Part shown: positions 2,862 to 24,932 of the stretch, piece after piece
How positions within the stretch are numbered: the stretch's first letter is position 1
Layout: every line of letters starts with the position of its first letter
Source of the DNA: a virus
DNA: 26,214 bases
IMG/VR virus record: IMGVR_UViG_3300030106_006507
Location: 1 to 26,214 of that record
Reading direction: 5' to 3' (one strand)
Position numbers and translations under genes: made by a program
Notes under the pieces: model-generated
The model's database searches: none
What the model was told of the DNA's origin: nothing
Seen by the model: only the letters and a program-made list of their open reading frames with translations

Positions 2862-3125
2862 ATGAAGCTTTATCGCATCCAAGCACGATATAAAAAAATG
2901 TATTTTAATGGGACGCTTGAGGCATCAGATGATAAGGCTGCTCTTGACACGTTTACGAATGGCGTTGAATCAGGAGAAATAAAAGGCATTGAGGAGTCTT
3001 TCTATGACGCTTCAAGACCTTTAATAACATTCGAGGAGATTGATAGAAATGTCATTACAACAACTGGTGTCAAAGAAACTTCAGTTGGAGTCCAAATGGG
3101 CGACACAAGCGTTGGGACAGGGTAG
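2862..3125 (+). CDS. Hypothetical protein, 87 residues
   Basis: First gene of the rightward 2862-4409 set. The first 65 residues look like one small alpha/beta unit: YRIQARYKKMYFNGTLEA, which resembles two strands, then a helix with DDKAALDTF and a strand near ITFEEIDR. The last 20 residues are low-complexity Thr/Gly/Val. I do not recognise the family. It begins without a ribosome site directly at the predicted transcript start. Its last 77 bases overlap the next gene in another frame. Confidence 0.65.
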   Translation: MKLYRIQARYKKMYFNGTLEASDDKAALDTFTNGVESGEIKGIEESFYDASRPLITFEEIDRNVITTTGVKETSVGVQMGDTSVGTG

Positions 3126-3279: not shown

Positions 3280-3780
3280 ATGTCTCCAAAATATTTTTTA
3301 TGGACAGTCACAGACTTTGTCAAAATTCACAAAAAAAGTTTAATAGAAAAAATTAAAGAGGATAACAGAGGCATAAAGCGTGATAACATTTCATGCACTG
3401 ACTATCAAAATAGAAATCAACCTGGTTTAGCTCCTTATCAAGTTTACATGAGAAATCATATACTTCATGAATTTTTACAACATTTTAATAAATATTTTCA
3501 ATCAAAAACTTGTCAACTACATGACATTTGGTATCAAATTTTTAAAAAAGGTGACTTTCACCAAAGACTTACAAATCCAGAAGCTCAATTCACAAATATT
3601 TTTTACGTACAACTTCCAGAAAAAGTAACAACTAAAACAGATTTATATGATATTGATGCTAAAGAGGGAGATATTGTTACATTTCCTGCGTATGTTCCAC
3701 ACACCTCACCTTTAAATAAAAGCAATGAAGAAAAAATTATTATTTGTTTTAAAACAAGCATTGACATGGGAATACAATGA
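3280..3780 (+). CDS. 2OG-Fe(II) oxygenase-like protein with altered metal site
   Basis: The C-terminal half follows the double-stranded beta-helix fold of phage 2-oxoglutarate/Fe(II) oxygenases: IWYQIFKKGDFH (83-94), FTNIFYVQLP (104-113), KEGDIVTFPAYVPHTSP (128-144) and a strand KIIICFKTS (152-160). The distal histidine H141 is present. Aligning DFHQRLTN with DFNPVHWH of the next gene puts L97 and N99 where that protein has the H-x-H that should bind iron. The protein may therefore have lost iron binding, or may use another ligand such as H94. The N-terminal 80 residues are unassigned. The stop overlaps the ATG of the next oxygenase (ATGA), so the two are probably translated together and might form a pair. 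Confidence 0.65.
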   Translation: MSPKYFLWTVTDFVKIHKKSLIEKIKEDNRGIKRDNISCTDYQNRNQPGLAPYQVYMRNHILHEFLQHFNKYFQSKTCQLHDIWYQIFKKGDFHQRLTNPEAQFTNIFYVQLPEKVTTKTDLYDIDAKEGDIVTFPAYVPHTSPLNKSNEEKIIICFKTSIDMGIQ

Positions 3781-4409
3781 TACAAAAAATATTAACACTA
3801 GGTGCAAAAGTAATGACATCTTATATTCCTGACAATATAATAAAAGAATTAAATGATTATGTTGATGAGGTTATTTTAAACAAAAATTTGTTAAAGGAAT
3901 TAGACCACGGGTCTAAATTAGCTGGGGACATTACGCAAGAAATAGAACTGCCAACAGAATTTTTAGAAAAATCAAAATGGCCTGAATATATTGGTGATAG
4001 GACTGCAGAATACATTAGAGATGGTATGGGTGCTAAAATGAATAAATTTCATCTTATATCAACTTGGGTGGTTAGATCTTTTAACAATGACTTTAACCCT
4101 GTCCATTGGCATGGTGGTCATGTGTCCGGTGTTGGGTTTTTAAAAGTACCTAGCACACAAAAATATACTGATGCTAAAGGTAATGATAAAGGCAGGCTTG
4201 AATTAATAACTGGACAAAGACATTTTATGAGTCAATCTACTTGTAAAATTAGTCCTAAAGTAGGTGGTTTAGTAATATTTCCTAATTGGATGATGCATAC
4301 TGCATATCCCTCATCAAGTAATGAAGAAAGAAGGACAATATCTTTTAATGCACAAGTTGATAACACAATTTATGATGTTTATGCAAATACTCATCCAGCT
4401 AAATTTTAA
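3777..4409 (+). CDS. 2OG-Fe(II) oxygenase family protein, 210 residues
   Basis: Iron- and 2-oxoglutarate-dependent oxygenases hydroxylate proteins, sugars or small molecules using O2. Here the typical phage pattern is complete: FNPVHWHGGHVSGVGFLKVP (107-125) with the H110-x-H112 pair, then the strand GRLELITGQ, then VGGLVIFPNWMMHTAYP (162-178) with the distal H174, and ERRTISFNA (184-192) with an arginine that could hold 2-oxoglutarate. The length of 210 residues is normal for the group. The substrate is unknown. The ATGA overlap with 3280-3780 implies coupled translation. It is the last gene of the rightward set, and no clear terminator follows. Confidence 0.8.
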   Translation: MIQKILTLGAKVMTSYIPDNIIKELNDYVDEVILNKNLLKELDHGSKLAGDITQEIELPTEFLEKSKWPEYIGDRTAEYIRDGMGAKMNKFHLISTWVVRSFNNDFNPVHWHGGHVSGVGFLKVPSTQKYTDAKGNDKGRLELITGQRHFMSQSTCKISPKVGGLVIFPNWMMHTAYPSSSNEERRTISFNAQVDNTIYDVYANTHPAKF

Positions 4410-4703: not shown

Positions 4704-4848
4704 TTACTTTATGAGTTTCAGCAAGATCATACCAGGTTTCTATTAACCTGGTACCTTTGCATCTTGGACAATTATTCTTTGGCGTTTCCCCAGCTTGATC
4801 CAAGTGCAACATCTGTTTTAAATGGAACTTTGAGTCCTTCAATTGCAT
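4639..4848 (-). CDS. DnaJ-like zinc-motif protein, 69 residues
   Basis: The protein has C27-PR-C30-KG and C52-PL-C55, the spacing of a zinc ribbon with the CxxCxG signature of the DnaJ central domain. These four cysteines should bind one zinc ion. The ATG at 4848 has AAGGAG seven bases upstream, although this lies inside the polymerase gene, which it overlaps by 77 bases. It is the last gene of the leftward replication operon, and its 3' end runs antisense to the 48-residue gene. HMO-2011-type phages carry a partial DnaJ domain within PolA, so a separate piece right behind PolA is suggestive. Its role may be to aid the polymerase or DNA binding; this is inference. Confidence 0.6.
   Translation of the reverse strand: MQLKDSKFHLKQMLHLDQAGETPKNNCPRCKGTRLIETWYDLAETHKVTTECPLCLPDLDLQSLRSSGL
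4730..4753 (+). terminator. 9-bp hairpin behind the 48-residue gene
   Basis: TACCAGGTT (4730-4738) pairs exactly with AACCTGGTA (4745-4753) around the loop TCTATT. It starts 27 bases after the stop at 4703, a fitting place for a terminator of the plus-strand transcript, but the T-tract is poor (CCTTTGC). It also lies within the coding part of the zinc-motif gene on the other strand. Confidence 0.35.
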
Positions 4849-6646
4849 TTTCCATCTCCTTTTTAATTCCTATTATATCATTCTCTTCATTAATTGAAAA
4901 GCATAGTTCATCATGTATTTGTAAAATGGGTTGAAACCCTTTTTTATAACAATTAATCATAGCTTGTTTCGTTTGATCAGCAGCTGATCCTTGTATTAAT
5001 CTATTTAACGCCTTATATGTGTATGCTCTTCTTATATTATTACCGTAAACTGCCTTAGCCTCTTCATACTTCATAGCTTTATTCATACCAAACGTAGCAG
5101 GCTCCCACATATCAAACCTACATTTTCTACCTTTCACAGTTCTTATAAAACCAAATTTTGAAGCAGAGTTCATTACTGATTCTGCTAATCTTTTTACAAA
5201 TGGAACTTTATTATGATATTTACTTAATAAATTTTCTGCTGCATCCTTAGATATACCTAACTCTCTCGCTAATTTTGCTTTACCCATTCCATAAAATAAA
5301 CCAAGATTAATTGTCTTTGCATTTGTTCTTGAGATACCAGCCATATCAGCAACTATTTGATGAAAATCAGCTTCATCACTTTCATAAGCTTTTATAAACT
5401 CATCAGCACCTGTAAATGATCCATCAATATCCACGGAGGCAGCGTAATGAGCTACTAATCTTGGTTCTTGTTGTGAGTAATCAAAGCTACCCCATTGTCT
5501 GCCCTCTTCAGGTAAAAATAAACTTCTTATTTTATTTCCATATTCTTTGTTTCTTGCTGGTATTTGTTGAAGATTTGGATTAGAATAGCTTAAACGTCCT
5601 GATACAGTCCCACCTTGGTCTGATCTCAGTTGATTAATCTCTGAGTGTATTCTGCCTTTGTGTACGTATCTTTGTATGGAGTCTATGAATGTTGAATGGA
5701 ATTTATTTATTTCTCTTGCTTCTCGTATTAACTGCGCTACTGGGTTATCACAGTTTACTAACCAGTTTTGGGTAAAGCTTGGTTCTCCGGTTTTCGGTGT
5801 CCGTGGGTAATCCACACCTATTCTATCAAATGCCTGAGCTACAGATCTAGCAGCCCAAATATCAATATCAAATGTGGTTTCATCTTTTATTTTTTTTAAT
5901 ACCTCACCTTCTTTACGTTTAAATTCTTTTTTAAGAGCATGCGCCTTTTCTTCATTGACACGTATACCTCGTCTTCTCATATCAATTAAAATAGGCTGCA
6001 GCTCCATTTCAAGGTCCCACACATCATGTAAACTTTGTTTATTTATCTCTTGTTTTAAATATTTCCAAAGTTTTAAAGTTAATCCTGCATCTTGTTCAGC
6101 GTAAAAACCAACATAACCTGCAGGTAATCTCCATAAATCTTGTTTAGCATCAATACCCCACTCTTTAGCTTTTTCATTTAAAAAAGTTTCATTTTTTATT
6201 TCACCTAAATAATCTTTAGCACAAGCATTTAAAGCAAAACTGTATCTATTTTCGTCAACTATAGCAGCAGCTATCATAGTGTCTACAATCTTACCACGAA
6301 TCTCAAAGCCATTAACTAAAAGCCAACCTACATCATAAGACGCATTATGAAAAACTTTAGTAGCAGGGGTTCGTAATACATTCTGCATCCAAGCTGTAGT
6401 TATACCAAGATCCATATTTCCCCCAGCATCATGTGCTATCGGAAAATACCATTGTTTATCAAACGCAGCTACAGCAAATCCTACAATGTGTCCATTAAAG
6501 GTTGCCCAGCCTGAGCCCTTTGTTTTTAAATCTGGATCTTTGGTTTCTAAGTCAATCGCTATTTCTGTAGCTTGTGATAAATCAGGATACTCACTAGGGC
6601 AAACCCAATCACTATCGTTATAAATAAAATTTAATTGATGTGTCAT
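4772..6646 (-). CDS. polA: Family A DNA polymerase with 3'-5' exonuclease, 624 residues
   Basis: The replicative polymerase of the phage. The N-terminal proofreading exonuclease has IDLET (D32, E34), FHNASYD (D105) and YAEQD (Y182, D186). The polymerase has TVSGRLS (347-353), motif A SFDYSQQEPRL (387-397, catalytic D389), motif B R440-TNAKTINLGLFYG with K444 and Y452, and motif C IHDE (577-580). There is no 5'-3' exonuclease domain. At the place of E. coli Phe762 (four residues after the motif B lysine) stands Leu448, the variant common in marine phage PolA and linked in the literature to slower, more faithful synthesis and a less virulent life style. The ATG overlaps the stop of a 30-residue membrane-protein gene (ATGA), so translation is coupled. 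Confidence 0.97.
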   Translation of the reverse strand: MTHQLNFIYNDSDWVCPSEYPDLSQATEIAIDLETKDPDLKTKGSGWATFNGHIVGFAVAAFDKQWYFPIAHDAGGNMDLGITTAWMQNVLRTPATKVFHNASYDVGWLLVNGFEIRGKIVDTMIAAAIVDENRYSFALNACAKDYLGEIKNETFLNEKAKEWGIDAKQDLWRLPAGYVGFYAEQDAGLTLKLWKYLKQEINKQSLHDVWDLEMELQPILIDMRRRGIRVNEEKAHALKKEFKRKEGEVLKKIKDETTFDIDIWAARSVAQAFDRIGVDYPRTPKTGEPSFTQNWLVNCDNPVAQLIREAREINKFHSTFIDSIQRYVHKGRIHSEINQLRSDQGGTVSGRLSYSNPNLQQIPARNKEYGNKIRSLFLPEEGRQWGSFDYSQQEPRLVAHYAASVDIDGSFTGADEFIKAYESDEADFHQIVADMAGISRTNAKTINLGLFYGMGKAKLARELGISKDAAENLLSKYHNKVPFVKRLAESVMNSASKFGFIRTVKGRKCRFDMWEPATFGMNKAMKYEEAKAVYGNNIRRAYTYKALNRLIQGSAADQTKQAMINCYKKGFQPILQIHDELCFSINEENDIIGIKKEMENAIEGLKVPFKTDVALGSSWGNAKE

Positions 6647-6921: not shown

Positions 6922-7150
6922 CTTTTAATTTTAATATTTCTAACTGACAATAGTGAATTACTTTTTCTAAATCTTGTATCCCGTTTTTCTGCTTGTACCT
7001 GCACACGTATTTTATGACGTTCCCTTGAAAAAACGTGAGTTCATTTTTTGAAATAAACTCAAATGGTTGTATGACCATATCTTTATAATGAGATCCCCCA
7101 ATTTGTTTTGTTTGAGGAAAAGCTTTTGAAAATAAATCTTTATGTGTCAT
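6902..7150 (-). CDS. DUF3310 family protein, 82 residues
   Basis: The sequence carries the hallmark of DUF3310, a small phage family: IGGSHYKDMVIQPFEFI (17-33), then FFQGNVIKYVCRY (40-52) and KNGIQDLEKVIHYCQLEI (55-72). The molecular function is unknown, but members usually lie in phage DNA replication or nucleotide regions, as here between the helicase and PolA genes. The ATG overlaps the stop of the oxygenase gene before it (ATGA). Confidence 0.85.
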   Translation of the reverse strand: MTHKDLFSKAFPQTKQIGGSHYKDMVIQPFEFISKNELTFFQGNVIKYVCRYKQKNGIQDLEKVIHYCQLEILKLKDAKKSK

Positions 7151-7749
7151 ACTCTTTTCTCACCCTCTCTAAATTTTGGATACGAAAACCAACCTGTAAA
7201 AATCATTTTTTCATGCTCATTTGTTATTTGACCTCTATGAGTGTGTGTCCATTCTGCTGGCCAGATAATTGTCAAACCTTTTTTTGCTGGTATTAATAAT
7301 TCTTGATAATAAAACTCCGTGCCTGCATTTGGCACATCGTTTAAAAATGTCATAAATACAAACACTCTTCTAGATCCGCTTTCGCTGACACCATTTCTTT
7401 CTGCATGCCATTTTTTAAAACCAGCTCCAGGTTTATAAAATTGAAAGTTTGGTGGCTCAACTAATTGAACTTTACCAGCGTTACTAGCTTCAAAATATTG
7501 ACCTAAATATTCGTCAAATGATTTTTGTAAGCATTCGTAATAATTTTTAAATGGGTGATCAAATCTAACTGGAACTGTACAATCTAATGATTCTTTAAAA
7601 TCTTTATCTATGCCTCTACTAATTCTACCTTCACTCCATAAATGTTTATTTTTTAAAAAATATTCTACTAAATCATCAACAATTTTATGGTCATACATCC
7701 ATCCCATAATAAAATCAGTAATTTTTAAATTATCTGTATATCTTTCCAT
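7147..7749 (-). CDS. 2OG-Fe(II) oxygenase, prolyl-hydroxylase-like, 200 residues
   Basis: A dioxygenase of the prolyl-4-hydroxylase type known from cyanophages. The core runs from FQFYKPGAGFKKWHAERNG (102-120), where H115-x-E117 would hold iron, through RRVFVFMTFLNDVPNAGTEFYY (127-148, quoted in part as VFMTFLNDVPNAGTEF), to KKGLTIIWPAEWTHTHRG (156-173), where H169 or H171 is the distal ligand, and a lysine near 181 that may bind 2-oxoglutarate. The substrate is unknown. It sits inside the replication operon: it overlaps the helicase gene by 20 bases and DUF3310 by 4, so it is expressed with the DNA machinery rather than with the other oxygenases. Confidence 0.85.
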   Translation of the reverse strand: MERYTDNLKITDFIMGWMYDHKIVDDLVEYFLKNKHLWSEGRISRGIDKDFKESLDCTVPVRFDHPFKNYYECLQKSFDEYLGQYFEASNAGKVQLVEPPNFQFYKPGAGFKKWHAERNGVSESGSRRVFVFMTFLNDVPNAGTEFYYQELLIPAKKGLTIIWPAEWTHTHRGQITNEHEKMIFTGWFSYPKFREGEKRV

Positions 7750-24227: not shown

Positions 24228-24424
24228 TCTTTTGTTTTTCCAGCTAATGTCAATCTTGTAACTGTAATTTCTAAATCTTGCCTAAAATCCTCTGCAGTAG
24301 TATCAGTGTTTGGATCTGCTACATCAGCGTCAAAAGCAGCTTTATTTTCATAAATTTTTCCAGTTCTTTTATGCTTGATTATTTCTTTAGCTTCAGCTGG
24401 TATTGTTTTAATCTCTGTCATCAT
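24224..24424 (-). CDS. Conserved small phage protein, 66 residues
   Basis: Start at ATG 24424 or 24421; GGGGTA precedes. The body reads IIKHKRTGKIYENKAAFDAD, then VADPNTDTTAEDFRQD and EITVTRLTL. This resembles small proteins in the virion operons of marine phages with 'TGK.Y ... DV.DP.TDT ...' patterns, without a known function. It overlaps the oxygenase gene before it by 17 bases. Confidence 0.65.
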   Translation of the reverse strand: MMTEIKTIPAEAKEIIKHKRTGKIYENKAAFDADVADPNTDTTAEDFRQDLEITVTRLTLAGKTKE

Positions 24425-24932
24425 TACCCCAAGGTTTTGCTTCAATCATATTAAAGGCAATAGCATATTTTGGACCTTCCTGCAAGAAACCTGTTCCATG
24501 AATTAAAGGTGCGGACCAGACAGCTATGGTGCCTACTTTTGGATAAATTTCTAAATTCAAATCAGGAAATTTTAAAGGAGTGCTGCTTTCACTTAAATAC
24601 AAAATACCACTTACACTGGCTGGCATATGATCATGAAAAGTGGTATTTTGACCTTTTTCTAACTTAATACCCCAAGCCTCATTTAAAAACCCAGAGGGTA
24701 TAGCATACGGTAATCCTTCTAAATTATTTTTTAAAACATTTATAAATTCTTGATCTTTAATAAAAAGTTTCCAACTTGTCATTCCACCCTTTACGTTAGT
24801 TCTTGCAGATAGATCATTTACATTTTTATCAATTTTTTCTTTAAAATAATTTAAGTTAATATTTTCTGCAACACATTCATAAAGAAAAATAGGAATGGGT
24901 ACTTTTTTTTCAATTATCTTTACAACTTTCAT
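24408..24932 (-). CDS. 2OG-Fe(II) oxygenase family protein, 174 residues
   Basis: The C-terminal half has the phage dioxygenase pattern: NTTFHDHMPASVSGILYLSE (96-115) with H100-D-H102 as the iron pair, YPKVGTIAVWSAPLIHGTGF (130-149) with the distal H145, and KYAIAFNM (155-162), where K155 may hold 2-oxoglutarate. The N-terminal half (1-85) is a typical short helical cap. The substrate is unknown. It stands in the virion operon, between the basic 42-residue protein and the two glycosyltransferases, which suggests hydroxylation of a virion protein or a sugar. The ATG overlaps the stop of the gene before it (ATGA). Confidence 0.75.
   Translation of the reverse strand: MKVVKIIEKKVPIPIFLYECVAENINLNYFKEKIDKNVNDLSARTNVKGGMTSWKLFIKDQEFINVLKNNLEGLPYAIPSGFLNEAWGIKLEKGQNTTFHDHMPASVSGILYLSESSTPLKFPDLNLEIYPKVGTIAVWSAPLIHGTGFLQEGPKYAIAFNMIEAKPWGNDDRD

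Follow-up and report, generated by a model that had tools for sequence, protein, structure and literature searches.

Two oxygenase-type genes in a variable slot

Marine phages carry many 2-oxoglutarate (2OG)-oxygenase genes of unknown purpose, and HTVC023P-type pelagiphages have eight distinct kinds of 2OG-Fe(II) oxygenase gene (PMC9599517). In the viral DNA analysed here (the window, the whole stretch of 26,214 nucleotides), two genes related to this class, designated P1 and P2, lie in tandem at the following locus:

2862..3125, + strand: gene for a conserved 87-aa protein, one border of the variable slot
3280..3780, + strand: P1, 166-aa oxygenase-fold protein with L97-T98-N99 instead of HxH; H141 kept; F88 and K158
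3568..3576, + strand: L97-T98-N99 codons CTT ACA AAT; CAT/CAC ACx CAC (H-T-H) in relatives
3700..3702, + strand: codon CAC of the distal histidine H141; TAC (Tyr) in contigs L001 and L004
3777..3780, + strand: ATGA, 4-bp overlap of P1 stop and P2 start
3777..4409, + strand: P2, 210-aa PF13759 oxygenase with intact H110-W-H112, H174, R185 and N191
4772..6646, - strand: family A DNA polymerase, the other border of the variable slot

The DNA polymerase shares 60.6% identity with its counterpart in Pelagibacter phage HTVC023P, and on this basis the phage carrying the window is classed as an HTVC023P-like pelagiphage, a SAR11-type marine phage. A near DNA match to the window was absent from the phage records. 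Both P1 (34.4 bits) and P2 (63.8 bits) match PF13759 (2OG-FeII_Oxy_5) above its curated cut-off of 27 bits, and both match phrog_81. The intact P1 of the related contig L003 scored 51.2 bits against PF13759. All three proteins stayed below the TIGR02466 NCBIfam cut-off of 62.5 bits (P1, 38.7; L003 P1, 51.3; P2, 35.2 bits). A recent duplication of P1 and P2 was ruled out by BLASTP, which gave a match of 38 residues only (39% identity); the two are distant relatives. Two more oxygenase-like genes occur in the window (7147-7749 and 24408-24932, both on the - strand), one with the motif WHAE (H-x-E) and one with HDH, which makes a total of four within the 26-kb fragment.

A reading of the sequence alone had noticed that P1 has leucine-threonine-asparagine (LTN) where P2 has H-W-H, and this was borne out. 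Both open reading frames (ORFs) are present; the P1 stretch reads G91-D-F-H94-Q-R-L97-T98-N99-P100 and that of P2 D105-F-N-P-V-H110-W-H112, and in HMMER alignments LTN falls exactly onto the H-I-H of PDB chains 2rg4 and 3bvc. The iron motif H-x-H/D/E...H is found in P2 (H110, H112, H174), whereas P1 has L-x-N...H in the window and L-x-N...Y in L001 and L004. A family set of 136 related ORFs in the fetched loci was gathered by jackhmmer. At position 97, 132 of these have H, and the window, L001 and L004 have L; the one that is left, a remote member and probably misaligned, has S. At position 99, 133 carry H, D or E, and N is confined to the same three. Within the P1 subfamily (n = 42), H97 and H99 are present in all but these three. 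The distal histidine, likewise described as kept, is indeed found in the window as H141 and throughout the subfamily wherever covered, except that L001 and L004 have Tyr. Among the 37 outgroup sequences of the subfamily H97, H99 and H141 stand at 100% where covered, and the cultured phages Mosig EXVC030M, S-SSM6b and S-RIM8, read by eye, also have H-x-H and a distal His. Judged from these alignments, LTN lies far outside ordinary family variation, and of the iron site expected in P1 the HxH half is gone, whereas HWH...H174 is retained in P2. As the residues of the family motif are gone, we infer that normal catalysis by P1 is lost; a PF13759 match above cut-off does not prove that a viral auxiliary gene encodes an active enzyme.

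Alleles of P1 and the third oxygenase gene

The nearest relatives of the window P1 are of two sorts. In L002 and L003, P1 is 85% identical to that of the window and retains H97-T-H99 and H141. In L001 and L004 it is about 97% identical and has LTN plus H141Y, so that all three inferred iron ligands are gone by alignment. The codon changes are CAT/CAC to CTT at position 97 and CAC to AAT at position 99. At 20 columns that are at least 90% conserved in the 37 outgroup sequences, the window clade and its sister disagree at four (Y88F, H97L, H99N and N158K), all changed on the window side and none on the sister side. Columns 88 and 158 are invariant Y and N in the P1 subfamily outside the window clade. 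N158K alone was not used as a sign of gene death, since K at 158 also occurs in the group of the 155-aa gene described below. The window P1 keeps K152, H94, T105-N106 and E129-G130, and its reading frame is intact in every contig covering it, the three LTN contigs included. Absence of the change from relatives had been named as a finding that would count against the active/inactive pair, and this applies in part. L002 and L003 do have H97-T-H99, yet LTN is real, being common to three contigs, which also makes an assembly error unlikely as its source. Recombination of one half of the gene was discounted, as dS is similar in both halves of P1 (about 0.7 vs 0.8-0.9). Taken at the level of these comparisons, LTN is a lineage-specific loss, and intact, partly stripped (LTN+His) and fully stripped (LTN+Tyr) alleles of P1 exist. 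Searches for further alleles with the window protein, the alignment and a DNA pattern each brought up all or some of the same four viral contigs, and a search of the genome collection yielded no relative.

In L002 and L003, P1 and P2 are separated by a gene for a 155-aa oxygenase. Its product shows the HTD...H...R pattern of 2OG oxygenases and matches PF13640 weakly (20.4 bits, below cut-off); the gene was not found anywhere else in the window. In L003 (3612-4076) its start codon and that of P2 are exactly 464 bp apart, and it fills this interval; AATG stands at both ends of this present/absent segment. The P1 stop in L003 is TAA, the same place in L001 and the window is CAA, and one codon more leads to the TGA of ATGA. 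Outgroup P1 proteins terminate close to the L003 stop position; this tips the balance slightly towards a deletion in the window lineage as the origin of the difference. The ATGA junction, which had been taken to couple P1 and P2, is thus present as a 4-bp overlap, but it exists in the window because the 155-aa gene is absent, and L002 and L003 have the third gene there instead. The window region directly downstream of P2 (4411-4637) is missing from L001 and L004.

The slot between the 87-aa gene and the DNA polymerase has a variable oxygenase content: L010 has a gene of the 155-aa type only, and L046, L061 and L034 have a P1-type gene only. Elsewhere P1-type genes often adjoin an oxygenase gene, yet they are often found without one, which argues against any general need of P1 for a partner. 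Several other contigs have oxygenase genes in a row, up to the five in L123 (2792-5663). These five consecutive oxygenase-like ORFs nearly all overlap or lie within 2 bp of each other, and each has an H-x-H/D...H motif.

Predicted fold and selection on P1

An AlphaFold2 model of P1, built with 40 aligned sequences and containing no metal, showed a double-stranded beta-helix (DSBH) with a mean pLDDT of 91 and a pTM of 0.89. Its best PDB matches were 3bvc (Z 17.4, rmsd 2.7, 158 residues) and 2rg4 (Z 16.4, rmsd 3.1, 158 residues), uncharacterised proteins of marine Rhodobacterales, and prolyl hydroxylases and PiuC ranked lower. These two are the closest solved folds to P1 and their alignment spans the motif, but unlike P1 they have H-I-H and a distal His. 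Foldseek and VIA-align returned known 2OG-oxygenase folds only. The P1 fold is therefore predicted to survive the ligand loss, in agreement with the earlier view that the fold pattern is kept. The model of P2 was of moderate quality (pLDDT 77).

Between the window and L001, P1 differs by five nonsynonymous and five synonymous changes, giving a dN/dS of 0.225 within the ligand-less clade, and the comparison of L001 with L004 adds one synonymous change (clade total, 5 nonsynonymous to 6 synonymous). The same window-to-L001 comparison gave 3 nonsynonymous to 7 synonymous changes for P2 and 2 to 20 for the DNA polymerase outside one replaced patch. In the polymerase (4772-6646), 33 of the 55 coding differences from L001 cluster at about aligned codons 360-420, a pattern that would fit the replacement of a short patch by recombination. 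Five or fewer nonsynonymous changes among 11 have a probability under neutrality of 0.005-0.08 across the mutation models tried, and of 0.06-0.10 at a transition bias of 6-15; transitions make up 22 of the 25 differences over 2.1 kb. These 11 changes lean, though not clearly, towards constraint on P1 after the ligand loss. Between the clades, dN/dS of P1 is about 0.10, being about 0.05 for residues 1-96 and 0.15-0.20 for residues 97-165 at similar dS, a difference that may predate the loss. The loss itself may be recent, in which case the open frame is weak evidence of retention.

Possible fates of P1

The ancestor of P1 would have been a normal member of the PF13759/phrog_81 group of Fe(II)/2-oxoglutarate oxygenases in the variable cargo slot of a pelagiphage. 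P1 resembles the phage oxygenases of this group, among them those of HTVC023P-type pelagiphages (PMC9599517), in its fold, in H94, T105, N106, E129, G130 and K152 and in its role as pelagiphage cargo; the HxH and N158 that they possess are lost in the window clade, and the distal His is lost in L001 and L004. In the window's lineage the expected iron site has gone in at least two steps, H97L, H99N, Y88F and N158K coming before H141Y, which is confined to L001 and L004. The product is probably still made and folded and is presumably non-catalytic, because the frame is open and both the predicted fold and most of the conserved columns outside the metal site have survived. Such a protein could serve as a scaffold, or it could bind its former target, or 2OG with the retained K152, and leave it unoxidised. 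That P1 is a retained, folded, non-catalytic DSBH protein after stepwise loss of its iron site is our leading reading, about evenly poised between right and wrong, and early decay comes a close second.

Early decay would mean that P1 became useless in this lineage, perhaps along with the loss of the third gene, and is now drifting with a frame that is open since the event is recent. We consider this a serious though somewhat less probable account. The succession of lost invariant residues (Y88, H97, H99 and N158, then H141 in L001 and L004) fits it, as do the ready gain and loss of genes in the slot and the ratio of 5 nonsynonymous to 5 synonymous changes in P1, against 3 to 7 in P2 and 2 to 20 in the polymerase. 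It sits less easily with three contigs devoid of stops and frameshifts, with a within-clade dN/dS of 0.225 and not 1, and with the retained conserved columns outside the metal site. Another idea, that the open frame serves chiefly as a leader for the translation of P2, draws on the 4-bp overlap, through which ribosomes ending P1 can begin P2; a leader would not preserve amino acid sequence, yet most of those same columns are kept, and we regard it as the least probable of the alternatives.

The sequence-only reading had proposed an active/inactive pair, with P1 regulating or completing its partner P2. The descriptive half of that proposal stands, in that P1 has an oxygenase fold lacking HxH and P2 has HWH...H174; an established pair is not supported. 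Binding of an inactive P1 to P2 would be in keeping with the overlapping genes, the intact iron site of P2, the frequent adjacency of other P1-type genes to an oxygenase gene, and the precedent of OGFOD1, whose metal-less C-terminal DSBH domain lies beside a catalytic one (PMC4396695). Like the C-terminal domain of OGFOD1/Tpa1, P1 is an oxygenase fold that lacks the expected metal site and stands beside a catalytic one, but OGFOD1/Tpa1 is one fused eukaryotic chain; P1 has a phage gene of its own, and its close relatives have the site intact. An inactive partner beside an active one is not what the relatives share: in L002 and L003 P1 looks active and another oxygenase gene parts it from P2, and P1-type genes also occur with no adjacent oxygenase. 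Since the P1-P2 junction is present only where the third gene is absent, P1 would not be an ancestral obligate partner of P2, and we consider the partner reading unlikely. Similarly unlikely, in our estimate, is that P1 remains an iron enzyme whose site is reduced or has been rebuilt, from H141 and H94 or from E101 gained beside N99. Laboratory variants of AspH that have one His ligand are still substantially active and retain their Fe(II) affinity (PMC10947486), H94 is conserved and G101E arose in the same clade; against this, N158 and Y88, invariant elsewhere, have changed as well, and L001 and L004 lack H141 too with the frame still open. By analogy with AspH, the window P1 with its H141 might have residual single-His activity, and H94, invariant in the subfamily, might help to bind metal. 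P1 shares with these variants and with human AspHD1 (PMC10947486) a number of protein iron ligands below the usual; the AspH variants are laboratory mutants, whereas P1 is natural and has one allele that lacks all three positions.

P1 looks like a natural enzyme death in progress and not a conserved active/inactive pair. A search of one paper library for phage 2-oxoglutarate pseudoenzymes found no paper. The further step, that selection keeps this former auxiliary 2OG oxygenase of a phage for a non-catalytic role in infection while all three kinds of allele circulate in marine phages, is put forward tentatively, as rather doubtful; if true, the protein might bind a target, bind 2OG or control an oxygenase encoded nearby. 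The intact, LTN+His and LTN+Tyr alleles, otherwise 85-97% identical, form a ready series for separating an enzymatic from a binding role for the phage.
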